Below are positions 2,111 to 63,535 of a stretch of 64,000 bases of DNA, piece by piece; position 1 is the stretch's first letter; each line of letters opens with the position of its first letter. The DNA is from Siphonodentalium dalli (lineage: Eukaryota; Mollusca; Scaphopoda; Gadilida; Siphonodentaliidae). The stretch spans positions 11,887,729-11,951,728 of the forward strand of contig CP136068.1 in NCBI GenBank assembly GCA_032622095.1, in the 5' to 3' direction. The translations under genes and the position numbers were made by a program. Under the pieces are notes generated by a model. The model had not been told where the DNA came from. It saw only the letters and a program-made list of their open reading frames with translations, and searched no databases.

Positions 2111-5100
2111 GTGCTATAATTACCAGAAACATACGTTTAGTTCCGTTCAACGTGTTCATTACTAGAAACACATGATTAGTTCCGTACAATGTGTTCATTA
2201 ATAGAAACATATGATTAGTTCCGTTAAACGTGCTATAATTACCAGAAACATACCTTTAGTTCCGTTCAACGTGTTCATTACTAGAAACACATGATTAGTT
2301 CCGTTTAACGCGTTCATTAATAGAAACATATGATTAGTTCCGTTCAGCGTGTTCATTACCAAAAACATACGTTTATTTCCGTTCAACGTGTTCATTACCA
2401 GAAACACATGATTAGTTCCGTACAATGTGTTCATTAATAGAAACATATGATTAGTTCCGTTAAACGTGCTATAATTACCAGAAACATACGTTTAGTTCCG
2501 TTCAACGTGTTCATTACTAGTAACATATGATTAGTTCCGTTCAACGCGTTCATTAATATAAACATATGATTAGTTCTGTTAAACGTGTTCATTAATAGAA
2601 ATATATGATTAGTTCCGTTAAACGCGTTCATTACTATAAACATATGATTAGTTCCGTTAAACGCGTTCATTAATATAAACATGTGATTAGTTCCGTTAAA
2701 CGCGTTCATTACTATAAACATATGATTAGTTCCGTTAAACGCGTTCATTACTATAAACATATGATTAGTTCCGTTAAACGCGTTCATTAATATAAACATG
2801 TGATTAGTTCCGTTAAACGTGTTCATTACTAGAAACACATGATTAGTTCCGTACAATGTGTTCATTAATATAAACACATGATTAGATCCGTTCAACGTGT
2901 TCATTACTAGAAACATACGTTTAGTTCCGTTCAACGTGTTCATTACTAGAAACACATGATTAGTTCAGTTCAACATGTCCATTACCAGAAACATACGTTT
3001 AGTTCCGTTCAACGCGTTCATTACTATAAACATATGATTAGTTCCGTTAAACGCGTTCATTAATAGAAACATATGACTAGTTCCGTTCAACGTGTTCATT
3101 ACTAGAAACATACGATTAGTTCCGTTCAACGTGTTCATTACTATAAACATATGATTAGTTCCGTTAAACGCGTTCATTACTAGAAACATAAGAGTAGTTC
3201 CGTTCAACGTGTTCATTACTAGAAATATAAGATTAGTTCCGTTCAACGTGTTCATTACTAGAATCATACGATTAGTTCCGTCCAACGTGTTCATTACTAT
3301 AAACATATGACTAGTTCCGTTAAACGCGTTCATTACTATAAACATATGATTAGTTCCGTTCAACGTGTTCATGAATATAAACATACGTTTAGTTCCGTTC
3401 AACGTGTTCATTACCAGAAACATACGATTAGTTCCGTTCAACGTGTTCATTACTATTAACATATGATTAGTTCCGTTCAACGCGTTCATTACTATAAACA
3501 TATGATTAGTTCCGTTAAACGCGTTCATTACTAGAAACATACGATTAGTTCCGTTCAACGCGTTCATTAATATAAACATATGATTAGTTCTGTTAAACGT
3601 GTTCATTAATAGAAATATATGATTAGTTCCGTTAAACGCGTTCATTACTATAAACATATGATTAGTTCCGTTAAACGCGTTCATTAATATAAACATGTGA
3701 TTAGTTCCGTTAAACGTGTTCATTACTAGAAACATACGATTAGTTCCGTTCAACGCGTTCATTAATAGAAACATATGATTAGTTCCGTTCAACGTGTTCA
3801 TAAATAGAAACATACGATTAGTTCCGTTCAACGTGTTCATTAATAGAAACATACGATTAGTTCCGTTCAACTCGTTCATTAATAGAAACATATGATTAGT
3901 TCCGTTAAACGTGTTCATTACTAGAAACATACGATTAGTTCCGTTCAACGTGTCCATTAATATAAACATATGATTAGTTCCGTTAAACGTGTTCATTAAT
4001 ATAAACATACGATTAGTTCCGTTCAACGTGTTCATTAATATAAACATACGATTAGTTCCGTTCAACGTGTTCATTACTATAAACATATGATTAGTTCCGT
4101 TCAACGTGTTCATTACTATAAACACATGAGTAGTTCCGTTAAACGTGTTCATTAATATAAACATACGATTAGTTCCGTTCAACGTGTTCATTACTATAAA
4201 CACATGAGTAGTTCCGTTAAACGCGTTCATTAATATAAACATACGATTAGTTCCGTTCAACGTGTTCATTACTAGAAACATACGATTAGTTCCGTTCAAC
4301 GTGTTCATTACTATAACCATATGATTAGTTCCGTTAAACGCGTTCATTACTAGAAACATACGATTAGTTCCGTTCAACGTGTTCATTACTATAAACATAT
4401 GATTAGTTCCGTTCAACGTGTTCATTACTAGAAACATACGATTAGTTCCGTTCAACTTGTTCATTACTAGAAACATATGATTAGTTCCGTTAAACGCGTT
4501 CATTAATAGAAACACATGAGTAGTTCCGTTCAACGTGTTCATTACTAGAAACACATGATTAGTTCCGTTTAACGCGTTCATTAATAGAAACATATGATTA
4601 GTTCCGTTCAACGTGTTCATTAATAGAAACATATGATTAGTTCCGTTCAACGTGTTCATTACTAGAAACACATGATTAGTTCCGTTTAACGCGTTCATTA
4701 ATAGAAACATATGATTAGTTCCGTTCAGCGTGTTCATTAATAGAAACATATGATTAGTTCCGTTCAACGTGTTCATTACCAGAAACACATGATTAGTTCC
4801 GTACAATGTGTTCATTAATAGAAACATATGATTAGTTCCGTTAAACGTGCTATAATTACCAGAAACATACGTTTAGTTCCGTTCAACGTGTTCATTACTA
4901 GAAACACATGATTAGTTCCGTACAATGTGTTCATTAATAGAAACATATGATTAGTTCCGTTAAACGTGCTATAATTACCAGAAACATACCTTTAGTTCCG
5001 TTCAACGTGTTCATTACTAGAAACACATGATTAGTTCCGTTTAACGCGTTCATTAATAGAAACATATGATTAGTTCCGTTCAGCGTGTTCATTACCAAAA

Positions 5101-40488: not shown

Positions 40489-41030
40489 ACGATGCTGGTT
40501 ACCCATAAACGCGTGATGCTACTCACCCAAGAGAGTCGACCGGGATTTCACGTTTTTATCTGTGACCATGATACAAGAAGTTAGGTTCACGCTATTCACT
40601 CACGGGCATCAATCATGAAGTCACGTTTTCCCCTGTGACGAGGATACAGGACCTCAGGGCGTGATGCTACTCACCGACGAGCGTCGAGCGTGAATTCATG
40701 TTTTTGTCTGTGACCAAGATACAGTAAGTCAGATTCACGCTACTCACCCACGAGCGTCGACTGTTATTTCACGTTTTTCTCTGTGACCATGATACAGCAA
40801 GTCAGATTGACGCTACTCACCAACGAGCGTCGACCGTGATTTCACGTTTTTCTCTGTGACTATGATACAGTAAGTCAGATTCACACTACTCACCCACGAG
40901 CGTCGACCGTGATTTCACAATTTTCTCTGTGACCATGATACAGTAAGTCAGATTGACGCTACTCACCAACGAGCGTCGACCGTGATTTCACGTTTTTCTC
41001 TGTGACCATGATACAGTAAGTGAGGTTCAC
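40489..41030. repeat. 73-base minisatellite (~7 copies) running into the last visible integrin exon
   Basis: The unit contains CGAGCGTCGACCGTGATTTC, ACGTTTTTCTCTGTGACCAT and GATACAGTAAGTCAG. Successive GATACAG blocks near 40864 and 40937 give a 73-base step. The rightmost copy abuts the presumed 5' splice site of the minus-strand integrin exon at 41031 without any spacer. On the gene's sense strand the unit contains GTTGGTGAGTAGC, a strong 5'-splice-site-like motif at the position that aligns with the exon end. Confidence 0.88.
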
Positions 41031-41155
41031 TTCCGCGCGTGACACAGAGAGATGAATCGCATCGGGAGTCGAGTAGATGTTTACGCCGACGTTGATCACG
41101 TTTCTCGATTTCATCATGTGTACCTCGTTGCTTAGATACGACCCGATAGCCACGT
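41031..41155 (-). CDS. Integrin alpha exon: end of FG-GAP blade 7 and start of thigh domain
   Basis: The 3' splice site is TTTGTTGCAG before 41155 (minus strand). The first two bases complete the Asp codon split with the preceding exon. It reads DVAIGSYLSNEV, then HMMKSRNVINVGVNIYS, matching the integrin pattern at the close of blade 7 (D-hydrophobic-hydrophobic-G-A/S-Y/F, then S/A-R-P-V-I-x-V) that leads into the thigh domain. The usual Pro after SR is Asn here. The 3' end is uncertain: a weak donor GTGAAC follows GCGGAA, giving end 41031 in phase 0. Coding could instead continue a short way into the 73-base repeat. The protein would be a type I membrane receptor chain that pairs with an integrin beta chain; this exon lies in the extracellular head-to-leg transition. 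Confidence 0.82.
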
Positions 41156-42766: not shown

Positions 42767-42934
42767 CTGGATACAGGTTGTCGTCGACGTCGATTGGTTT
42801 AGCGATATGGAATCCGAACCCCAGACTGCCTTGCTGTACTATTTTCTGTATCCTCACTGCCTTCGGTCCAACGATGTTAAATATATAAACTGCACCTCTG
42901 TTTTCGTTCTCGTACGGCGCCCCAACCGCTATAT
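42767..42934 (-). CDS. Integrin alpha exon: blade 6 end and blade 7 FG-GAP calcium loop
   Basis: 168 bases encode 55 whole codons plus split codons at each end (2 bases in, 1 base out). The acceptor TTCTTTTCCGACAG precedes 42934; the donor is CCAG then GTATTT. It reads (D)IAVGAPYENENRGAVYIFN, closing blade 6 with the classic IAVGAPY motif. It continues with GFGFHIAKPIDVDDNLYP, in which the DVDDNLYPD loop (last Asp completed by the next exon) is a canonical calcium site, with ligands D, D, N and D at positions 1, 3, 5 and 9. In the family this propeller forms the ligand-binding head with the beta chain. The antisense plus-strand frame here is a shadow. Confidence 0.93.
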
Positions 42935-42989: not shown

Positions 42990-43415
42990 CGAAGATTTTG
43001 ACGATGATGACAACGGCGATGATACGACGTTGATGACGACTACAACAAGTAATCTGACGAGGATTAAGATGGTGGCGATGAAGGTGAAGATGGCGATGAT
43101 GAAGACAATGCTTGTAAAAAACGACAATGATGGTGATGATGGTGACGACTATGATGATGATGATGATGATGATGATGACCACGACGATGATGGTGATGGC
43201 GATGACGACGACTATGATGATGATGATGGTGACGACTATTATGATGATGATGGTGACGACTATGATGATGGTGATGGTGATGACGACGACGATGATAATG
43301 ATGATGGTGACGACTATGATGATGATGATGACCACGACGATGATGATGATGGTGATGGTGATGACGACGACTATGATGATGATGACTATGATGATGTTGA
43401 TGATGATGAATAAAG
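42990..43415. repeat. GAT/GAC trinucleotide microsatellite
   Basis: Imperfect runs of GATGATGAT and GACGAC on the plus strand are broken up mainly by GGT and TAT triplets. The frame reads as poly-Asp on the plus strand, or Val/Ile on the minus. It sits in the intron between the 44.6-kb and 42.9-kb integrin exons and has no start context, domain or non-repetitive coding flank, so it is not annotated as a gene. Confidence 0.93.
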
Positions 43416-43442
43416 AGGGTGATGATGACGACGAACCATACT

Positions 43443-43957
43443 TATATAGGATCATGATAACAGCCATGTTATGGGAAATCGATGATACACGCGTCATACA
43501 TATAACAACCTTGTTATGGGAAATCGATTATACACGCGGTATACATATTACAACCTTGTTATGCGAAATCGATTATACACGCGGTATACATATTACAACC
43601 TTGTTATGCGAAATCGATTATACACGCGGTATACATATTACAACCTTGTTATGCGAAATCGATTATACACGCGGTATACATATTACAACCTTGTTATGCG
43701 AAATCGATTATACACGCGGTATACATATTACAACCTTGTTATGCGAAATCGATTATACACGCGGTATACATATTACAACCTTGTTATGCGAAATCGATTA
43801 TACACGCGGTATACATATTACAACCTTGTTATGCGAAATAGATTATGTACACGCGTTATATATATAACAACATTGCACTGGGAAATCGAGTATACATGCA
43901 GTTGGTATACATATAGCAACCATGTTATGGGAAATCGATGATACACGCGGTATACAT
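43443..43957. repeat. 45-base minisatellite (~11 copies)
   Basis: The unit combines ATGCGAAATCGATTATACAC, GCGGTATACATATTACAACC and TTGTT. Central copies from about 43550 to 43820 are identical; those at both edges are diverged (GATGATACACGCGTC at left, GCAGTTGGTATAC at right). That is typical of an array growing from the middle. Since 45 is divisible by three, parallel plus-strand frames stay open. It is intronic in the integrin gene. Confidence 0.93.
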
Positions 43958-44638: not shown

Positions 44639-44756
44639 CTTTGACGTCGTCATTATTGATGTCTCCGAGGTTCGTTATAGCTGTTCCGAACCGTGATCCA
44701 TCAACCGGGTCTCCTTCCAATACGTGTGTGTGTGCGGCAAAGGCCACATTCAGACT
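44639..44756 (-). CDS. Integrin alpha exon: FG-GAP blade 6 calcium loop
   Basis: 118 bases: 39 codons plus one base (phase 0 in, phase 1 out). The acceptor is ...TCATTTATAG before 44756; the donor is CAAAG then GTATTT. It reads SLNVAFAAHTHVLEGDPVDG and then SRFGTAITNLGDINNDDVK. RFGTAI plus DINNDDVK(D) is the FG-GAP core with a canonical calcium loop: ligands D, N, D and the Asp completed by the next exon. The upstream part forms the strand linking blades 5 and 6. It joins in frame with the exon at 55827-55976 and with that at 42767-42934. Confidence 0.92.
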
Positions 44757-45333: not shown

Positions 45334-45769
45334 TGTGACCCGCCATATCAAATCCAGTCGTAAGTCGGGATTTTTTTACCCTGTGCCAATGCATTCTCTT
45401 ATATATGCATATATAAGAGAATGCATTGGCCTAACAATTTTATATCATTTTTTTTATATAAATGTTTCTTACAATTTTTAGGACATAAATTAAAAAATAT
45501 CCATTACCCTGCAGGGAGCCCCACACATATATAGAAGCATATAGAAGAGTGTCGTCTGCTCATGTTTGTTTCGGGCTCTGTATGGGTGAAATTATAAAAA
45601 TGTTAAAGCATACAAGAACAAATTATTAAAATTGTAAAAAATTGTTAGGCCAATGCTTTCTCTTATATATGCGAGGCGACCTATGGTCGACTCGCATATA
45701 TAAGAGAATGCACTGGCACAGGGTAAACAAAATCCCGACTTACGAATGGATTTGATATGGCGGGTCACA
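45334..45769. mobile_element. Composite fold-back element with paired internal palindromes, copy A
   Basis: The outer inverted repeat starts TGTGACCCGCCATATCAAAT at 45334 and its complement ends at 45769. It extends about 50 bases to the CCCTGTGCC block. Just inside each end sits a self-complementary module. On the left it is a perfect 46-base palindrome (45385-45430: GCCAATGCATTCTCTTATAT and its mirror). On the right it is a 69-base version (45649-45717) with a GCGAGGCGACCTATGGTCGA centre. The core is A/T-rich and non-coding. The same module pair occurs at 63171-63387 within different outer ends. Confidence 0.8.
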
Positions 45770-45836: not shown

Positions 45837-48800
45837 GGTAATACGTACACCCGACCGGCTACAGTGAATGTGTATCATTCCTTACTGTATTTATACGTAA
45901 TACGTACACCCGACCGGCTACAGTGAATGTGTATCATTCCTTACTGTATGTATACGTAATAAGTACACCCGACCGGCTACAGTGAATGTGTATCATTCCT
46001 TACTGTATTTATACGTAATACGTACACCCGACTACAGTGAATGTGTATCATTCCTTACTGTATTTATACGTAATACGTACACCCGACCGGCTACAGTGAA
46101 TGTGTATCATTCCTTACTGTATTTATACGTAATACGTACACCCGACCGGCTACAGTGAATGTGTATCATTCCTTATTGTATTTATACGTAATACGTACAC
46201 CCGACCGGCTACAGCGAATGTGTATCATTCCTTACTGTATTTATACGTAATAAGTACACCCGACCGGCTACAGTGAATGTGTATCATTCCTTACTGTATT
46301 TATGCGTAATACGTACACCCGACCGGCTACAGTGAATGTGTATCATTCCTTACTGTATTTATACGTAATACGTACACCCGACCGGCTACAGTGAATGTGT
46401 ATCATTCCTTACTGTATTTATACGTAATACGTACACCCGACCGGCTACAGTGAATGTGTATCATTCCTTACTGTATTTATACGTAATACGTACACCTGAC
46501 CGGCTACAGTGAATGTGTATCATTCCTTACTGTTTTTATACGTAATACGTACACCCGACCGGCTACAGTGAATGTGTATCATTCCTTACTGTATTTATAC
46601 GTAATACGTACACTCGACCGGTTACAGTGAATGTGTATCATTCCTTACTGTATTTATACGTAATACGTACACCCGACCGGCTACAGTGAATGTGTATCAT
46701 TCATTAATGTATTTATACGTAATACGTACACCCGAACGGCTACAGTGTATGTGTATCATTCCTTACTGTATTTATACGTAATACGTACACCCGACCGGCT
46801 ACAGTGAATGTGTATCATTCCTTACTGTATGTATACGTAATATGTACACTCGACCGGCTACAGTGAATGTGTATCATTCCTTACTGTATTTATACGTAAT
46901 ACGTACACCCGACCGGCTACAGTGAATGTGTATCATTCCTTACTGTATTTATACGTAATACGTACACCCGACCGGCTACAGTGAATGTGTATCATTCCTT
47001 ACTGTATTTATACGTAATACGTACACCCGACCGGCTACAGTGAATGTGTATCATTCCTTACTGTATTTATACGTAATACGTACACCCGACCGGCTACAGT
47101 GAATGTGTATCATTCCTTACTGTATTTATACGTAATACGTACACTCGACCGGCTACAGTTAATGTGTATCATTCCTTACTATATTTATACGTAATACGTA
47201 CACTCGACCGGCTACAGTGAATGTGTATCATTCCTTACTGTATTTATACGTAATACGTACACCCGAACGGCTACAGTGAATGTGTATCATTCCTTACTGT
47301 ATTTATACGTAATACGTACACCCGACCGGCTACAGTGAATGTGTATCATTCCTTACTGTATGTATACGTAATATGCACACTCGACCGGCTACAGTGAATG
47401 TGTATCATTCCTTACTGTATTTATACGTAATACGTACACCCGACCGGCTACAGTGAATGTGTATCATTCCTTACTGTATGTATACGTAATACGCACACTC
47501 GACCGGCTACAGTGAATGTGTATCATTCCTTACAGTATTTATACGTAATACGTACACTCGACCGGCTACAGTGAATGTGTATCATTCCTTACTGTATTTA
47601 TACGTAATACGTGCACTCGACCGGCTACAGTGAATGTGTATCATTCCTTACTGTATTTATACGTAATACGTACACTCGACCGGCTACAGTGAATGTGTAT
47701 CATTCCTTACTGTATTTATACGTAATACGTACACTCGACCGGCTACACTGAATGTGCATCATTCCTTACTGTATTTATACGTAATACGTACACCCGACCG
47801 GCTACAGCGAATGTGTATCATTCCTTACTGTATTTATACGTAATACGTACACTCGACCGGCTACAGTGAATGTGTATCATTCCTTACTGTATTTATACGT
47901 AATACGTACACCCGACCGGCTACAGTGAATGTGTATCATTCCTTACTGTATTTATACGTAATACGTACACCCGACCGGCTACAGTGAATGTGTATCATTC
48001 CTTACTGTATTTATACGTAATACGTACACCCGACCGGCTACAGTGAATGTGTATCATTCCTTACTGTATTTATACGTAATACGTACACCCGACCGGCTAC
48101 AGTGAATGTGTATCATTCCTTACTGTATTTATACGTAATACGTACACCTGACCGGCTACAGTGAATGTGTATCATTCCTTACTGTTTTTATACGTAATAC
48201 GTACACCCGACCGGCTACAGTGAATGTGTATCATTCCTTACTGTATTTATACGTAATACGTACACTCGACCAGTTACAGTGAATGTGTATCATTCCTTAC
48301 TGTATTTATACGTAATACGTACACCCGACCGGCTACAGTGAATGTGTATCATTCATTAATGTATTTATACGTAATACGTACACCCGAACGGCTACAGTGA
48401 ATGTGTATCATTCCTTACTGTATTTATACGTAATACGTACACCCGACCGGCTACAGTGAATGTGTATCATTCCTTACTGTATGTATACGTAATATGTACA
48501 CTCGACCGGCTACAGTGAATGTGTATCATTCCTTACTGTATTTATACGTAATACGTACACCCGACCGGCTACAGTGAATGTGTATCATTCCTTACTGTAT
48601 GTATACGTAATACGTACACTCGACCGGCTACAGTGAATGTGTATCATTCCTTACAGTATTTATACGTAATACGTACACTCGACCGGCTACAGTGAATGTG
48701 TATCATTCCTTACTGTATTTATACGTAATACGTGCACTCGACCGGCTACAGTGAATGTGTATCATTCCTTACTGTATTTATACGTAATACGTACACTCGA

Positions 48801-51800
48801 CCGGCTACAGTGAATGTGTATCATTCCTTACTGTATTTATACGTAATACGTACACTCGACCGGCTACACTGAATGTGCATCATTCCTTACTGTATTTATA
48901 CGTAATACGTACACCCGACCGGCTACAGTGAATGTGTATCATTCCTTACTGTATTTATACGTAATACGTACACTCGACCGGCTACAGTGAATGTGTATCA
49001 TTCCTTACTGTATTTATACGTAATACGTACACCCGACCGGCTACAGTGAATGTGTATCATTCCTTACTGTATTTATACGTAATACGTACACCCGACCGGC
49101 TACAGTGAATGTGTATCATTCCTTACTGTATTTATACGTAATACGTACACCCGACCGGCTACAGTGAATGTGTATCATTCCTTACTGTATTTATACGTAA
49201 TACGTACACCCGACCGGCTACAGTGAATGTGTATCATTCCTTACTGTATTTATACGTAATACGTACACCTGACCGGCTACAGTGAATGTGTATCATTCCT
49301 TACTGTATTTACACGTAATACGTACACCCGACCGGCTACAGTGAATGTGTATCATTCCTTACTGTATTTATACGTAATACGTACACTCGACCGGTTACAG
49401 TGAATGTGTATCATTCCTTACTGTATTTATACGTAATACGTACACCCGACCGGCTACAGTGAATGTGTATCATTCATTAATGTATTTATACGTAATACGT
49501 ACACCCGACCGGCTACAGTGAATGTGTATCATTCCATACTGTATTTATACGTAATACGTACACTCGACCGGCTACAGTGAATGTGTATCATTCCTTACTG
49601 TATTTATACGTAATACGTACACTCGACCTGCTACAGTGAATGTGTATCATTCCTTACTGTATTTATACGTAATACGTACACCCGACCGGCTACAGTGAAT
49701 GTGTATCATTCCTTATTGTATTTATACGTAATACGTACACCCGACCGGCTACAGCGAATGTGTATCATTCCTTACTGTATTTATACGTAATAAGTACACC
49801 CGACCGGCTACAGTGAATGTGTATCATTCCTTACTGTATTTATGCGTAATACGTACACCCGACCGGCTACAGTGAATGTGTATCATTCCTTACTGTATTT
49901 ATACGTAATACGTACACCCGACCGGCTACAGTGAATGTGTATCATTCCTTACTGTATTTATACGTAATACGTACACCCGACCGGCTACAGTGAATGTGTA
50001 TCATTCCTTACTGTATTTATACGTAATACGTACACCTGACCGGCTACAGTGAATGTGTATCATTCCTTACTGTTTTTATACGTAATACGTACACCCGACC
50101 GGCTACAGTGAATGTGTATCATTCCTTACTGTATTTATACGTAATACGTACACTCGACCGGTTACAGTGAATGTGTATCATTCCTTACTGTATTTATACG
50201 TAATACGTACACCCGACCGGCTACAGTGAATGTGTATCATTCATTAATGTATTTATACGTAATACGTACACCCGAACGGCTACAGTGTATGTGTATCATT
50301 CCTTACTGTATTTATACGTAATACGTACACCCGACCGGCTACAGTGAATGTGTATCATTCCTTACTGTATGTATACGTAATATGTACACTCGACCGGCTA
50401 CAGTGAATGTGTATCATTCCTTACTGTATTTATACGTAATACGTACACCCGACCGGCTACAGTGAATGTGTATCATTCCTTACTGTATTTATACGTAATA
50501 CGTACACCCGACCGGCTACAGTGAATGTGTATCATTCCTTACTGTATTTATACGTAATACGTACACCCGACCGGCTACAGTGAATGTGTATCATTCCTTA
50601 CTGTATTTATACGTAATACGTACACCCGACCGGCTACAGTGAATGTGTATCATTCCTTACTGTATTTATACGTAATACGTACACTCGACCGGCTACAGTT
50701 AATGTGTATCATTCCTTACTATATTTATACGTAATACGTACACTCGACCGGCTACAGTGAATGTGTATCATTCCTTACTGTATTTATACGTAATACGTAC
50801 ACCCGAACGGCTACAGTGAATGTGTATCATTCCTTACTGTATTTATACGTAATACGTACACCCGACCGGCTACAGTGAATGTGTATCATTCCTTACTGTA
50901 TGTATACGTAATATGCACACTCGACCGGCTACAGTGAATGTGTATCATTCCTTACTGTATTTATACGTAATACGTACACCCGACCGGCTACAGTGAATGT
51001 GTATCATTCCTTACTGTATGTATACGTAATACGCACACTCGACCGGCTACAGTGAATGTGTATCATTCCTTACAGTATTTATACGTAATACGTACACTCG
51101 ACCGGCTACAGTGAATGTGTATCATTCCTTACTGTATTTATACGTAATACGTGCACTCGACCGGCTACAGTGAATGTGTATCATTCCTTACTGTATTTAT
51201 ACGTAATACGTACACTCGACCGGCTACAGTGAATGTGTATCATTCCTTACTGTATTTATACGTAATACGTACACTCGACCGGCTACACTGAATGTGCATC
51301 ATTCCTTACTGTATTTATACGTAATACGTACACCCGACCGGCTACAGCGAATGTGTATCATTCCTTACTGTATTTATACGTAATACGTACACTCGACCGG
51401 CTACAGTGAATGTGTATCATTCCTTACTGTATTTATACGTAATACGTACACCCGACCGGCTACAGTGAATGTGTATCATTCCTTACTGTATTTATACGTA
51501 ATACGTACACCCGACCGGCTACAGTGAATGTGTATCATTCCTTACTGTATTTATACGTAATACGTACACCCGACCGGCTACAGTGAATGTGTATCATTCC
51601 TTACTGTATTTATACGTAATACGTACACCCGACCGGCTACAGTGAATGTGTATCATTCCTTACTGTATTTATACGTAATACGTACACCTGACCGGCTACA
51701 GTGAATGTGTATCATTCCTTACTGTTTTTATACGTAATACGTACACCCGACCGGCTACAGTGAATGTGTATCATTCCTTACTGTATTTATACGTAATACG

Positions 51801-53958
51801 TACACTCGACCAGTTACAGTGAATGTGTATCATTCCTTACTGTATTTATACGTAATACGTACACCCGACCGGCTACAGTGAATGTGTATCATTCATTAAT
51901 GTATTTATACGTAATACGTACACCCGAACGGCTACAGTGAATGTGTATCATTCATTACTGTATTTATACGTAATACGTACACCCGACCGGCTACAGTGAA
52001 TGTGTATCATTCCTTACTGTATGTATACGTAATATGTACACTCGACCGGCTACAGTGAATGTGTATCATTCCTTACTGTATTTATACGTAATACGTACAC
52101 CCGACCGGCTACAGTGAATGTGTATCATTCCTTACTGTATGTATACGTAATACGTACACTCGACCGGCTACAGTGAATGTGTATCATTCCTTACAGTATT
52201 TATACGTAATACGTACACTCGACCGGCTACAGTGAATGTGTATCATTCCTTACTGTATTTATACGTAATACGTGCACTCGACCGGCTACAGTGAATGTGT
52301 ATCATTCCTTACTGTATTTATACGTAATACGTACACTCGACCGGCTACAGTGAATGTGTATCATTCCTTACTGTATTTATACGTAATACGTACACTCGAC
52401 CGGCTACACTGAATGTGCATCATTCCTTACTGTATTTATACGTAATACGTACACCCGACCGGCTACAGTGAATGTGTATCATTCCTTACTGTATTTATAC
52501 GTAATACGTACACTCGACCGGCTACAGTGAATGTGTATCATTCCTTACTGTATTTATACGTAATACGTACACCCGACCGGCTACAGTGAATGTGTATCAT
52601 TCCTTACTGTATTTATACGTAATACGTACACCCGACCGGCTACAGTGAATGTGTATCATTCCTTACTGTATTTATACGTAATACGTACACCCGACCGGCT
52701 ACAGTGAATGTGTATCATTCCTTACTGTATTTATACGTAATACGTACACCCGACCGGCTACAGTGAATGTGTATCATTCCTTACTGTATTTATACGTAAT
52801 ACGTACACCTGACCGGCTACAGTGAATGTGTATCATTCCTTACTGTATTTACACGTAATACGTACACCCGACCGGCTACAGTGAATGTGTATCATTCCTT
52901 ACTGTATTTATACGTAATACGTACACTCGACCGGTTACAGTGAATGTGTATCATTCCTTACTGTATTTATACGTAATACGTACACCCGACCGGCTACAGT
53001 GAATGTGTATCATTCATTAATGTATTTATACGTAATACGTACACCCGACCGGCTACAGTGAATGTGTATCATTCCATACTGTATTTATACGTAATACGTA
53101 CACTCGACCGGCTACAGTGAATGTGTATCATTCCTTACTGTATTTATACGTAATACGTACACTCGACCTGCTACAGTGAATGTGTATCATTCCTTACTGT
53201 ATTTATACGTAATACGTACACCCGACCGGCTACAGTGAATGTGTATCATTCCTTACTGTATTTATACGTGATACGTACACCTGACCGGCTACAGTGAATG
53301 TGTATCATTCCTTACTGTATTTATACGTAATACGTACACCTGACCGGCTACAGTGAATGTGTATCATTCCTTACTGTTTTTATACGTAATACGTACACCC
53401 GACCGGCTACAGTGAATGTGTATCATTCCTTACTGTATTTATACGTAATACGTACACCTGATCGGCTACAGTGAATGTGTATCATTCCTTACTGTATGTA
53501 TACGTAATACGTACACCTGACCGGCTACAGTGAATGTGTATCATTCATTACTGTATTTATACGTAATACGTACACCGGACCGGCTACAGTGAATGTGTAT
53601 CATTCCTTACTGTATTTATACGTAATACGTACACCCGACCGGCTACAGTGAATGTGTATCATTCCTTACTGTATTTATACGTAATACGTACACCCGACCG
53701 GCTACAGTGAATGTGTATCATTCCTTACTGTATTTATACGTAATACGTACACCCGACCGGCTACAGTGAATGTGTATCATTCCTTACTGTATTTATACGT
53801 AATACGTACACCCGACCGGCTACAGTGAATGTGTATCATTCCTTACTGTATTTATACGTAATACGTACACCTGACCGGCTACAGTGAATGTGTATCATTC
53901 CTTACTGTATTTATACGTAATACGTACACCTGACCGGCTACAGTGAATGTGTATCATT
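45837..53958. repeat. 59-base minisatellite (~137 copies) with a 3540-base higher-order repeat
   Basis: The plus-strand unit combines ACGTAATACGTACACCCGAC, CGGCTACAGTGAATGTGTAT and CATTCCTTACTGTATTTAT. Rare variants (CCTTATTGTA, CATTCATTAATG, CTGTTTTTAT) recur exactly 3540 bases apart (46701 and 50241; 48351 and 51891; 46171 and 49711), that is 60 monomers. Segments inside that unit repeat at 1652 bases (28 monomers). The two long copies (about 46.14-49.68 and 49.68-53.22 kb) differ at only isolated sites. One monomer near 46025 lacks CCGG. On the integrin sense strand each unit reads CGGGTGTACGTATTACG then ATACAGTAAGG, resembling the end and 5' splice site of the blade-5 exon (see findings). 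Confidence 0.97.
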
Positions 53959-54081
53959 TCTTATCCCCTCTGTATAATTGTAAGCCTTCTTATGCACCAT
54001 TGTTCTTCTAGGGCCATACCACGCCGTATACCGATGTTCTTGTTCGATATATATGTTAACTAAACATGAAACACTTATTTC

Positions 54082-54893
54082 GTATTACCCCGCAAAAATT
54101 GTCGTCGCTATATAGAGAAGACGGATTTTACACGGGTCATAACAATCACGTATGCCCCTTGTAAAACTGATATTTCCCGGCAAAAATTGTCGTCCCTATA
54201 TAGAGAAGACAGATTTTACACGGGTCATAACAATCTCGTATTCCCCTTGTAAAACTGATATTACCCGGCAAAAATTGTCGTCGCTATATAGAGAAGACAG
54301 ATTTTACACGGGTCATAACAATCTCATATGCCACTTGTAAAACTGAAATTACCCGGCAAAAATTGTCGTCGCTATATAGAGAAGACAGATTTTACAAGGG
54401 TCATAACAATCTCGTATGCCCCGTGTAAAACTGATATTACACCTCAAAAATTGTCGTCGCTATATAAAGAAGACAGATTTTACAAAGGTCATAACAATCT
54501 CGTATGCCCCGTGTAAAACTGATATTACCCCGCAAAAATTTTCGTCGCTATATAATGAAGACAGATTTTACAAAGGTCATAACAATCTCGTATGCCCCGT
54601 GTAAAACTGATATTACCCCACAAAATTTGTCGTCGCTATATAGAGAAGACAGATTTTACACGGGTCATAACAATCTCGTATGCCCCGTGTAAAACTGATA
54701 TTACCCCGCAAAAATTGTCGTCGCTATATAGAGAAGACAGATGTTACAAGGGTCATAACAATCTCGTATGCCCCGTGTAAAACTGATATTACACCGCAAA
54801 AATTGTCGTCGCTATATAGAGAAGACAGATTTAACAAGGGTCATATAATCTCGTATGCCCCTAGTAGAATTTATATGACCCGGCAAAAGTTTG
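54082..54893. repeat. 88-base minisatellite (~9 copies)
   Basis: The unit contains ATTGTCGTCGCTATATAGAG, AAGACAGATTTTACACGGGT, CATAACAATCTCGTATGCCC and CGTGTAAAACTGATATTACC. Each copy carries a potential hairpin, TTTTACACGGG against CCCGTGTAAAA, separated by about 20 bases. In some copies one arm reads TTTTACAAGGG or TTTTACAAAGG, weakening it. Overlapping 62-codon frames step by 88 bases and so shift frame each copy; they are not genes. 53959-54081 on its left is unique. Confidence 0.93.
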
Positions 54894-55212
54894 AAAGTCG
54901 GTTGTACATCTTGCAAAGCCACGTTGATTCCAGGTGTGATGTTATCTTGCTACTCTTGCTTGGTTTATTTAGGTTGTCTGACTCATTTACCATTACTATT
55001 TTTGAAGTGTATTGCTCTCTTTTATATCTTCTAACATATAGATTCCAAAAGTAAGCGAGGCCAGCCAGTATTTATGGACAAATTGTGGAAACCGCTATAT
55101 AAATATATTCATCGTATGAGCCGTCTAATCAAATAGAGTTACTGTTCGTGGCTAGTTTCCGCGCTTTATGTCTGTGTGAATATCTTGTTAATAGAGCCCT
55201 GGGATAAATACA

Positions 55213-55319
55213 TTACACGGCTTGTTGAGGGGGGATACGGTGTGGTATGCCCCGGTCGACTCTCATCTAGCATCTACCGGGGCATACCACACCGTATCTC
55301 CCCTCAACAAGCCGTGTAA
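55213..55319. mobile_element. Small fold-back element (107 bases)
   Basis: The arms of about 45 bases begin TTACACGGCTTGTTGAGGGG and mirror each other with one or two mismatches around a ~20-base loop (GACTCTCATCTAGCATC region). No target duplication is obvious. It is intronic. 54894-55212 to its left is unique with no recognised feature. Confidence 0.75.
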
Positions 55320-55335
55320 CTTATATTACTGTATT

Positions 55336-55826
55336 TCCAATGTTCGTTCGACTAGTTTCAGTGGATTCATAGCAATCCGTATCGGATTTCCCGTGTTCGT
55401 GTAAACGTATACCCTACTGGGTTTAATTGATTTATCATCCTTACCGTATTTCCCGTGTTCACGTAAACGTACACCCCACTAGTTTTAGTGGATTTATATC
55501 AATCCGTATCGTACTTCCCTTGTTCACGTAAACGTACACCCCACTAGTTTTAGTGGATTTATATCAATCCATATCGTACTTCCCTTGTTCTCGTAAACGT
55601 ACACCCGACTAGTTTTAGTGGATTTATATCAATCCGTATCGTACTTCCCTTGTTCACGTAAACGTACACCCGACTAGTTTTAGTGGATTCATATAAATTT
55701 GTATCGGACTTCTTCGTGTAAACGTATAACCTACTGGTTTCAGCAGATTTATATTAATCCATATCGGATTTCCCGTGTACGTGTAAACGTATTCCCTACG
55801 GGTTTCGATTCATTTATCATCCTTAC
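55336..55826 (-). repeat. 65-base minisatellite derived from the adjoining integrin exon end
   Basis: Seven to eight copies of about 60-67 bases lie immediately downstream (gene sense) of the exon at 55827-55976. On the minus strand a typical copy contains GTGTACGTTTACGTGAAC then AAGGGAAGTACGATACGG. The exon end reads GTGTATGTTTACGTGAAC then ACGGGAAGTACG followed by donor GTAAGG. Upstream parts also match (AATCCACTAAAAC against AATCCATTGAAAC). In most copies the donor GT is changed (GATACGG or similar). One copy, with GT at 55444-55443, keeps CGGTAAGG intact. The array therefore appears to be amplified coding sequence plus splice site, now intronic. Confidence 0.9.
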
Positions 55827-55976
55827 CGTACTTCCCGTGTTCACGTAAACATACACACGACCCGTTTCAATGGATTGATCTACGTTGTAGTAGTTCGGCT
55901 CGCCAACGATGATGTCACCCCTTTCGTCACCATTCACGTCCAGAACACAAACGGCTGACCCGAAATATCCTGCAAT
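55827..55976 (-). CDS. Integrin alpha exon: FG-GAP blade 5 with calcium loop
   Basis: 150 bases, 50 codons, phase 0 at both ends. The acceptor is GTGTGTTTACAG before 55976; the donor is AGTACG then GTAAGG. It reads IAGYFGSAVCVLDVNGDERG, DIIVGEPNYYNVDQSIETGR and VYVYVNTGST. GYFGSAV is the FG motif, DVNGDERGD the calcium loop with ligands at positions 1, 3, 5 and 9, and IIVGEP the GAP motif (Ala to Glu). RVYVYV is the strand closing the blade. Known integrin alpha chains have an exon break at the equivalent of the GYQ/IAGYF junction. The last ~60 bases and donor are the apparent source of the neighbouring 65-base repeat. Confidence 0.95.
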
Positions 55977-55991
55977 CTGTAAACACACAGT

Positions 55992-56528
55992 AAGGTACCG
56001 TGGGGTAATATTGACACTATATATGCGGGGATAATATTGACACTATGTGGGGGTAATATTGACACTGTGTGGGTAATATTGAAACTATGTGGGTGTAATA
56101 TAGACATTGTGTGGGGGTAATATTGACATTATGTGGGGATAATATTGACAATATGTGGGGTAATATTGATACTATGTTGGGTAATATTGACACTATGTGG
56201 GGGTAATTTTGACAATATGTGGGGGAATATTGACACTATATATATGTGGGGGTAATATTGACACTATGTTGGGGTAATATTGACACTGTGTTGGGGTAAT
56301 ATTGACATTTATACTATGTGGGGGTAATATTGATACTATGTGGGGGTAATATTTACACTATGTTGGGGTAATATTGACACTATGTGGGGGTACTATTGAC
56401 ATTGATACTATGTGGGGTAATATTGATACTATGTGGGGGTAATATTTCATTGAAACTATGTGGGGGTAATATTGAAACTATGTGGGGGTAATATTGACAC
56501 TATTTAGGGTAATATTGACAATATGTGG
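55992..56528. repeat. Short minisatellite (~21-base unit, ~25 copies)
   Basis: Imperfect copies of TGGGGGTAATATTGACACTA have frequent small indels and ACATTGATACT-type variants. The array starts only ~15 bases beyond the acceptor of the blade-5 exon on the minus strand, so it occupies the usual branch-point zone of that intron. 56529-56947 is unique intron with nothing recognised. Confidence 0.88.
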
Positions 56529-60390: not shown

Positions 60391-60602
60391 CAGTAATGCT
60401 CTAATTAATCGACATCTTAACCATAGTAGAATTATGGGTAACTTTTCAGGATTTAGTCGGAAATATGGCTTGTTGCCATTCATCGGAAAGCTCTCTGTGA
60501 GAGCTTTCCGATGAATGGCAACAAGCATATTTCCGACTAAATCCTGAAAAGTTACCCATAATTATGCTGTGGTTAAGAGGTCGATTAATTAGAGCATTAC
60601 TG
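60391..60602. mobile_element. Fold-back MITE-like element with ~105-base arms
   Basis: The arms start CAGTAATGCTCTAATTAATC on both sides (right side reverse-complemented) and remain complementary through TTATGGGTAACTTTTCAGG and GCCATTCATCGGAAAGCTCT to a centre near 60497. Mismatches are few and lie mainly around 60413-60432. The CAGT...TTAATCGA start is reminiscent of Tc1/mariner-pogo-type non-autonomous elements, but no TA duplication is clear. 60603-60937 is unique. Confidence 0.8.
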
Positions 60603-60937
60603 TAGTTGTCGTTGCTCTGAACCGTGAGTAACAAAAATCAGTGCGTGCAATTTTTTTTAATAGTTTCGTGTTATGATAATGCAATGTACCCATTCTGACA
60701 TTCCGTTGAAGACAAATGGCACCATTTTTGTACTGGGTCAGTACATTGTGTTCGCAGTAGTATTTGTATGACCGCAATGCGTCTTTGTCTGACATATAAT
60801 GCTCGTTGGAAGATAGTTCATGTCTTTACCGACCTATTTCGATACCTAAAATCATTCAAAAGCGAATATTATCAAGTCTATTTTGGAGCGCAAACCGGCA
60901 TGTGGATTTAATTGTTTAACTCCATAATAACACAAAC

Positions 60938-60997
60938 CTGATACCCCTTGATGGACCCTATCTGTTTCGGCATTCCGTCTGTACTGAAGATATGCAC
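60938..60997 (-). CDS. Integrin alpha exon: end of blade 4
   Basis: A 60-base exon of 20 codons, phase 0 at both ends. The acceptor is TATATATTAAAG before 60997 (a poor pyrimidine tract); the donor is TATCAG then GTTTGT. It reads VHIFSTDGMPKQIGSIKGYQ. It continues directly from DVGK of the preceding exon to give the VxIF strand that closes blade 4, and runs into IAGYFGSAV of the next exon. The match to the integrin pattern (V-Y-I-F/Y ... I-x-G-x-Q | x-x-Y-F-G) and perfect phase make this short exon convincing despite its weak acceptor. Confidence 0.88.
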
Positions 60998-63015: not shown

Positions 63016-63418
63016 GTTATAACCCTTTACCCAACAAACCGCCAAAAACGGCCAAATAAAGCTGCAACAGCCTAAATTATCTTGGGTCTGTCTCAATAAA
63101 ACAATACAAATATGGATATCATTGGAACCGGCTCATTGACCACATTGTGATGGTTACAGTTATGCCCTGTGCCAATGCATTCTCTTATATATGCGAGTCG
63201 ACCATAGGTCGCCTCGCATATATAAGAGAATGCATTGGCCTAAACAAAATCTTTTTTTACCACTTTTTGCCATTTTTTCTTACATTCTTTAACAATTTTA
63301 TAATTTTTAATGTGTTAAGCCAATGCATTCTCTTATATATGCGAGGCGACCTATGGTCGACTCGCATATATAAGAGAATGCATTGGCACAGGGCCGTTCT
63401 GTTGGGTAAAGGGATAAC
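63016..63418. mobile_element. Composite fold-back element with paired internal palindromes, copy B
   Basis: The outer ends are GTTATAACCCTTTACCCAAC (from 63017) and, reverse-complemented on the right, GTTATCCCTTTACCCAACAG. Inside lie two 69-base palindromic modules, 63171-63239 and 63319-63387. Both start GCCAATGCATTCTCTTATAT and have a GTCGACCATAGGTCGCC-type centre, in mirror orientation and bounded outwardly by CCCTGTGCC. The ~80-base core between modules is A/T-rich. The modules match those of the element at 45334-45769, but the outer ends do not. Confidence 0.78.
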
Positions 63419-63449: not shown

Positions 63450-63535
63450 CTTACCCACATCATCCTCCCGAGGCGCACTTAACACTAGATATGTCTTCCC
63501 GTTACCGAAAAAGTCTCCATAGTCTACGGCATACC
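63450..63535 (-). CDS. Integrin alpha exon: FG-GAP blade 4
   Basis: 86 bases: two bases completing a Gly codon plus 28 codons. The acceptor is GCCTTCATCTTCAG before 63535; the donor is GGTAAG then GTAAGT (consensus). It reads (G)YAVDYGDFFGNGKTYLVLSA and PREDDVGK, matching integrin blade 4 (GYSV-x-x-GDF ... F/Y-V-x-G-x-P-R). The loop DFFGNGKTY lacks the acidic residues expected at positions 3, 5 and 9 of a calcium loop, so this blade probably does not bind calcium normally. A start upstream at CACAACCATG is possible but has a poorer acceptor. Earlier exons lie beyond the window. Confidence 0.88.

Follow-up and report, generated by a model that had tools for sequence, protein, structure and literature searches.

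Several described systems combine tandem repeats or duplications with splice sites. In human IFI6, according to the parts of the two accounts drawn on here, a minisatellite supplies several splice donors and its repeat units are reported to be used (PMC2572611, PMC4526556). The UBC gene, in the cited portion of its description, contains a tandem array of coding units with dual-specific splice sites, where AGGT acts as both donor and acceptor (PMC10809524). Tandem duplication across a splice boundary is also presented, in the section cited, as a route of intron gain, and the introduction of the same paper mentions ATP2A1 and fission-yeast genes that carry repeats of 24-bp AGGT segments (PMC4974935). 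No closer precedent was found among the papers listed by the literature searches. Here we describe a 59-bp tandem array in an intron of an integrin-alpha-like gene, located in a 64,000-nucleotide stretch (hereafter the window; C8:11887729-11951728). The genome, which comprises nine contigs and 2.23 Gb, is eukaryotic, as its introns and U1 small nuclear RNA (snRNA) genes show. With high probability, the array is a satellite that arose from an old tandem duplication of an exon's 3' end together with the adjoining 5' splice site; its units would carry the splice-site-like motif as a passenger, and the sequence data do not indicate a function in splicing or U1 binding.

Structure and setting of the 59-bp array

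Tandem Repeats Finder (TRF) reported a period of 59 bp and 96% matches among the copies, and a wrap-around alignment resolved the array into 137 complete units and a partial unit at either end, with one unit containing a deletion. The array starts about 1.9 kb downstream of exon e5 and lies between exons e5 and e6 (Table 1), an intronic location that follows from the consistent splice sites and phases of the two flanking exons. On the minus strand, which is the gene strand, the motif GTAAGG is intact at the junctions of 125 of the 137 complete units, 119 of which read ACAGTAAGG. The 12 broken junctions read TTAATG (6), GTAATG (2), GTATGG (2) and ATAAGG (2); this count omits the partial first junction (TAAGAA). 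The initial annotation had described about 137 splice-donor-like motifs in one intron, nearly all of them retaining GTAAGG, unlike the copies of a neighbouring 65-bp array. These descriptions agree with our counts: most copies in the 65-bp array have lost the GT, and one intronic copy keeps GTAAGG (donor 55444).

The approximately 137 copies represent one ancestral motif that has been multiplied rather than independent occurrences, and comparisons with chance were therefore made on a single unit. Self-identity within the array was 95.8% at a lag of 19 units and 94.3-95.3% at most other lags beyond 2.

Six exons are recognisable on the minus strand of the window (e4, e5a, e5, e6, e7 and e8); their splice sites are of the standard type and their phases fit together. 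The first three, when joined, matched the integrin alpha-4 of solved structures (E 1e-17, 98/99 residues), and their joined translation contained an FG-GAP domain (42.7 bits). With homology to integrin alpha and an FG-GAP domain, the gene is integrin-alpha-like, and this is its beta-propeller part. Exons e4 to e8 are consistent with one another. The Pfam model of the leg had three matches elsewhere on C8 and none at the window locus.

Evidence for an origin from an exon end and donor

We refer to the gene in the window as A and to its paralogues as B (C8:12975648), C (C3:35875884), D (C3 36.08-36.11 Mb), E (on C5) and F (on C3). The exon end and donor to which the 59-bp unit had initially been aligned are located at 55862-55813. 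A formal alignment of the unit to this sequence was equalled by 3 and 1 of 2000 shuffles under two scoring schemes, so that the similarity exceeds nearly all shuffles and the proposed derivation from the exon end and donor stands, aided by the precursors in C and F described below. None of 2000 shuffles scored as well for the 59-bp unit against the 65-bp unit, for the 59-bp unit against a single-copy unit in paralogue C, or for the paralogue C region against the exon end. It is these intermediates, rather than the direct alignment, that make the case for the origin strong. Homology to an exon end including the 5' splice site is thus seen directly for the 65- and 73-bp arrays, and for the 59-bp array directly but modestly and in addition via the intermediates.

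The 59-bp unit corresponds to the end of one exon-end copy joined to the start of the next. In a tree of the copies, its consensus grouped with copy 6 of C and F, which is the second of the two joined copies (support 82/89). In the window, a 1.4-kb stretch (Table 1) lies between a left half-unit at 55338-55326 (GGAAATACAGTAA) and the right half-unit with which the array begins. Four of the genes (A, B, C and E) have copies of the 65-bp type behind the exon; none were found behind the exon of D, in the main integrin locus or in two control stretches scanned in the window. Taken together, the alignments support an exon-end origin of the 59-bp array.

Paralogues with and without the array

Paralogue B is located about 1 Mb from A in the opposite orientation and is 94.8-99.5% identical to it in the five longest matches outside a 39-bp array, and 88% identical in the piece 43957-42415. 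It shares the exons and the donor with A, and its 65-bp copies and right flank are as in A. The 59-bp array is absent from B, where just 34 bp of the unit are present, joined at an ACATT repeat.

The exon of paralogue C is 84% identical in protein. Along its run of exon-end copies, the donor position is ATACGG in the exon itself, followed by ATACGG, GTAAGG and ATACGG; the first donor has been lost (ACG/ATACGG; the slash marks the splice boundary). The run is followed by a single unit with ACA/GTAAGG, and then by CCG/GTAAGT and ACG/GTAAGA. Such a single-copy precursor of the 59-bp unit was found behind the homologous exon in both C (C3:35875590) and F (C3:36078032). A search of the genome with the 59-bp unit listed, besides the array, three places, each beside or in a paralogue of this gene; the search scores only the best candidates and is not proof of absence elsewhere. 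The exon-end duplication hence looks old, and the satellite looks confined to one of the paralogues read.

An alternative that is compatible with a satellite origin, and which we consider possible although on balance improbable, is that the array predates the duplication of A and B and was lost from B, in which case an older array might once have had a role. B keeps the 34-bp unit end, with array-type sequence, and the right flank as in A. However, C and F carry a single unit, and the ACATT-repeat junction in B is accounted for equally well if a single unit lost 25 bp.

Two further differences among the paralogues were observed. The FG-GAP loop of e5 reads DVNGDERGD in A and DVNGDGRGD in B, the glycine being changed in A. 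In paralogue D, a 94-bp satellite replaces the donor and begins at the last bases of exon 5 (L012, from about position 4237); it recurs about 35 kb away beside the remainder of the intron (L016, 1-1857, with 28 kb between unread).

Donor strength, U1 pairing and variation within the array

To score the donors we used human 5' splice-site frequencies, a matrix that was not built for this species. The 59-bp unit scored 5.84 compared to 9.18 for the real e5 donor. Circular dinucleotide shuffling of the unit gave a site that was as good or better in 42.6% of 5000 cases. The exonic G at position -1 of the real donor (ACG/GTAAGG) has been lost in the units (ACA/GTAAGG). No site in the array reached a score of 6, so the motifs are not comparable in strength to the real donor. 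Sites scoring at least 5 numbered 136, namely the 125 with GTAAGG and 11 with CCG/GTCAGG.

The predicted duplex with the U1 5' end was -5.0 kcal/mol at the array motif, with only five contiguous pairs, compared to -8.7 kcal/mol at the real donor. The strongest duplex anywhere in the unit (-7.2 kcal/mol) falls outside GTAAGG and was equalled by 41% of 400 shuffles; the complementarity of the unit to U1 is not above background. The U1 5' end itself is canonical and unchanged in the three U1 loci read, out of 42 matches listed. Among the same 42 matches, the U1 snRNA genes include a tandem run at C1:103842444-103879156 with a spacing of mostly about 2,150 bp.

Mean divergence from the majority base was 2.30% for the donor hexamer and 1.85% for the other 53 positions of the unit (1.76% outside CpG). 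Counted from the most conserved, the hexamer ranked 46th of 59 six-base windows, and it showed five kinds of variants compared to an average of 2.7. The G at position +1 was altered in 8 of the 137 units. There is consequently no sign of selective maintenance of the motif within the array, and since the unit is less variable outside the hexamer than within it, retention of the hexamer looks like recency rather than constraint.

These results bear on the proposal of the initial annotation that the motifs act as decoys or recruit U1. In such a scenario, the U1 small nuclear ribonucleoprotein would bind the 125 GUAAGG motifs on the nascent transcript, which would curb premature polyadenylation or alter use of the real donor. 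The motif does lie in the transcribed sense, the opposite strand of the array containing no donor site with a score of at least 5, and the U1 5' end is canonical in the three loci read. Furthermore, sites scoring at least 5 are about four times denser in the array (136 in 8,126 nt, or 17 per kb) than in intron sequence outside arrays (3.9 per kb over 10,015 nt), an excess for which repetition alone suffices. Against this stand the short and weak pairing, the loss of the -1 G, the hexamer that is more variable than its surroundings and the existence of paralogue B without the array. Also against it, neither AATAAA nor ATTAAA was found within the array, the region counted. The initial annotation had named donor scores no better than those of shuffled units as a refutation, and the units did no better. 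We conclude that a decoy or U1-recruiting function finds no support in the donor scores, the duplex energies or the variation within the array, and regard it as very unlikely.

Slightly less likely again is that the units supply donors, with TGTAG as the acceptor, for alternative or cryptic exons. In the consensus unit a donor-like GT does follow a TAG at a distance of 32 nt, but the length of 59 is not a multiple of three, the donor is weak and the intronic continuation of e5 reaches a stop after 25 codons. Least likely of all, and rejected here, is that the array is a satellite or mobile-element fragment of independent origin that resembles the exon by chance, for although the direct alignment is modest and the window is crowded with other arrays (79% tandem repeat), the single-copy intermediates in the paralogues are continuous with recognisable exon-end copies and the three other places listed among the best-scoring candidates in the genome all lie beside or in paralogues.

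A model for the birth of the satellite

The satellite origin outlined above can be described as a series of steps. A segment of about 65 bp containing the exon end and the donor would first have been duplicated several times into the intron, as the copies in A, B, C and E show; this probably happened before the C5 paralogue split off, although the order of events is our reconstruction. The extra copies would have been free of cost if splicing kept to the first donor. Read-through past e5 ends at the stop noted above and past e8 after two codons, so that use of the later donors would give truncated products and the copies behind the first donor can be sheltered only as intron. Continued use of the first donor would accordingly allow duplications that span the 5' splice site to survive. 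The copies then decayed, and the 59-bp unit arose where two of them met, with a change from G to A at position -1, a stage represented by the single-copy units of C and F. Among the paralogues read, only the gene in the window would finally have amplified this unit to about 138 copies. Most copies would have kept GTAAGG because the amplification was fairly recent and homogeneous, and not because the motif was used.

Some observations weigh against this model or limit it. The direct similarity of unit and exon is modest, and under each scoring scheme there was a shuffle that scored higher; the tree support for placing the 59-bp consensus with copy 6 of C and F is only 82/89. B may never have had the array or may have deleted it. 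The higher density of donor-like sites might matter for an effect that depends on density. Selection on the presence of the array would not show in the variation among its units. Finally, donor use is predicted here from sequence, with human rather than species-specific frequencies.

If the model is correct, the paralogues serve as stepping stones that show how an exon with its splice site can give birth to a satellite. It also suggests why such arrays may adjoin exons on their downstream side, where extra copies would be sheltered by the first splice site. The case is in addition a caution that a splice-site-like motif may have no function even when it is repeated a hundred times.

A second case at exon e8

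The 73-bp unit of an array at exon e8 consists of the last 64 nt of the exon and 9 nt of its donor, with 70 of 73 bases identical in the alignment. The array has seven copies in both A and B, copy 1 being the exon itself, and A and B are identical at 558 of 560 bases across it. Paralogue E has an e8-type exon with its donor and no 73-bp array. Five of the six intronic donors score 8.45-8.55, comparable to the 8.55 of the real donor, and the sixth scores 5.58. Conservation of the donor was not decisive, as 8 of 70 windows were at least as conserved.

When 11 arrays of the window were compared to the six exons, only the 65-, 59- and 73-bp arrays beat all 300 shuffles, which indicates that there were at least two separate duplications of an exon end and donor, at two exons of one gene. 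We tentatively suggest, as an idea that is somewhat more likely to be wrong than right, that in this family such duplications are a recurrent route of intron growth that leaves decaying copies and seeds satellites, and that the donors of the 73-bp array (six near-equal and one weaker) may leak and give truncated products. The 73-bp array is in any case a better place than the 59-bp array to ask how the cell picks among tandem donors of equal strength.

Other features of the window and the genomic base rate

The coordinates of the exons and of the arrays discussed are collected in Table 1.

Table 1. Exons, splice site and repeat features in the window
Feature	Position	Strand	Description
Exon e4 (beta-propeller)	63450..63535	-	TTCAG/...AAG/GTAAGT; open frame; joined translation matches integrin alpha-4
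Exon e5a (VHIFSTDGMPKQIGSIKGYQ)	60938..60997	-	AAAG/...CAG/GTTTGT; phase 0-0
22-bp array	56002..56528	-	23.0 copies (TRF); ends 25 nt before e5 acceptor; unlike all six exons (63% of 300 shuffles as good)
Exon e5, FG-GAP blade	55827..55976	-	Splice sites, phase; last ~53 nt probable source of 65- and 59-bp units by copy alignment
Real e5 5' splice site	55821..55826	-	ACG/GTAAGG; score 9.18
65-bp array	55351..55856	-	8.0 copies (TRF), the first being the e5 end itself; tandem copies of exon end and donor
1.4-kb stretch	53964..55325	.	Not at this position in B; contains palindrome 55319-55213 and 88-bp array 54083-54888
59-bp array	45838..53963	-	137.8 copies (TRF); unit bridges junction of two old exon-end copies; carries ACA/GTAAGG
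Exon e6 (LEGDPVDGSRFGTAITNLGDINND)	44639..44756	-	Splice sites, phase
Exon e7 (DIAVGAPYENENRGAVYIF)	42767..42934	-	First codon shared with e6
Exon e8 (DVAIGSYLSNEV...)	40967..41155	-	Last 64 nt and donor TTG/GTGAGT = copy 1 of 73-bp array
73-bp array	40518..41030	-	7 copies; starts inside e8; intronic donors 40893, 40820, 40747, 40674, 40603 (weak), 40526

Tandem repeats with a period of at least 10 make up 79.4% of the window, compared to a mean of 9.0% (0 to 27%) in nine 10-kb pieces taken at round-number places and to 0% and 3.6% in the 10 kb flanking the window on either side, so that this stretch stands out. Arrays with units of 39, 37, 120, 45, 40, 88, 22 and 23 bp were considered as exon-derived and rejected, since none of them clearly resembled any of the six exons. 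The smallest chance fractions among them were 0.02 (40-bp) and 0.027 (39-bp), from 300 mononucleotide shuffles and uncorrected for 11 arrays; the comparison excluded a run rich in ATG (43127-43428) and the minor TRF rows nested in other arrays. The 39-bp array behind e8 spans 37.6 kb (1031-38611, 960 copies) in the window and has at least 293 copies in B, where it extends to the end of the piece read. The copy number of the 45-bp array is 10.9 in A (43460-43957), compared to 37 in B (joined L006-L008, 12013-13693), so array lengths differ much between these paralogues.

A family of fold-back (palindromic) elements around AATGCATTCTCTTATATATGCGAG occurs in the window at 45649-45723 and 63164-63394 and in three fn3 loci on C4 (L034, L041 and L044). 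Further palindromes are located at 55319-55213 and at approximately 60440-60610 of the window.

For a base rate we used 15 loci with fn3 exons from 150 matches listed, a small and biased sample in which 11 loci come from one stretch of C4. Judged by eye, TRF arrays with a period of at least 20 overlapped the fn3 match (at about positions 1500-1780) in none of the 15 loci. High scores in a self-similarity scan of L032, L034, L041 and L044 were due to copies of the fold-back element, as in the window. One locus (L043) has a 30-bp array that starts about 50 nt behind the donor and is not exon-like, and another (L033) has a self-similarity score of 31 on the antisense strand. The sample says only that arrays of exon ends and donors are not everywhere in the genome.

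Comparison with known systems

U1 telescripting offers a framework for a U1-recruiting role, and such a role finds no support in the 59-bp array. As in UBC, splice sites are present at every tandem unit, but in the 59-bp unit CA rather than AG stands before the GT, and the UBC units, in the portion of the account used here, are coding. The duplications in the window resemble those described for intron gain in that former exon sequence becomes intron. They differ from them, as far as the cited section goes, in that an existing intron grew at its 5' end and no new intron arose, and in that an existing rather than a cryptic donor was copied. The closest match to IFI6 as presented in the cited parts of its accounts, with tandem repeat units as 5' splice sites at an exon, is the 73-bp array. 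Unlike in IFI6, the donors of the 59-bp units are decayed and weak and begin 1.9 kb downstream of the exon, and the donors here are recognised by their sequence. By analogy, the arrays in the window seem best placed with the IFI6 minisatellite and with duplications across splice boundaries, from which the 59-bp array departs by its decayed donors.

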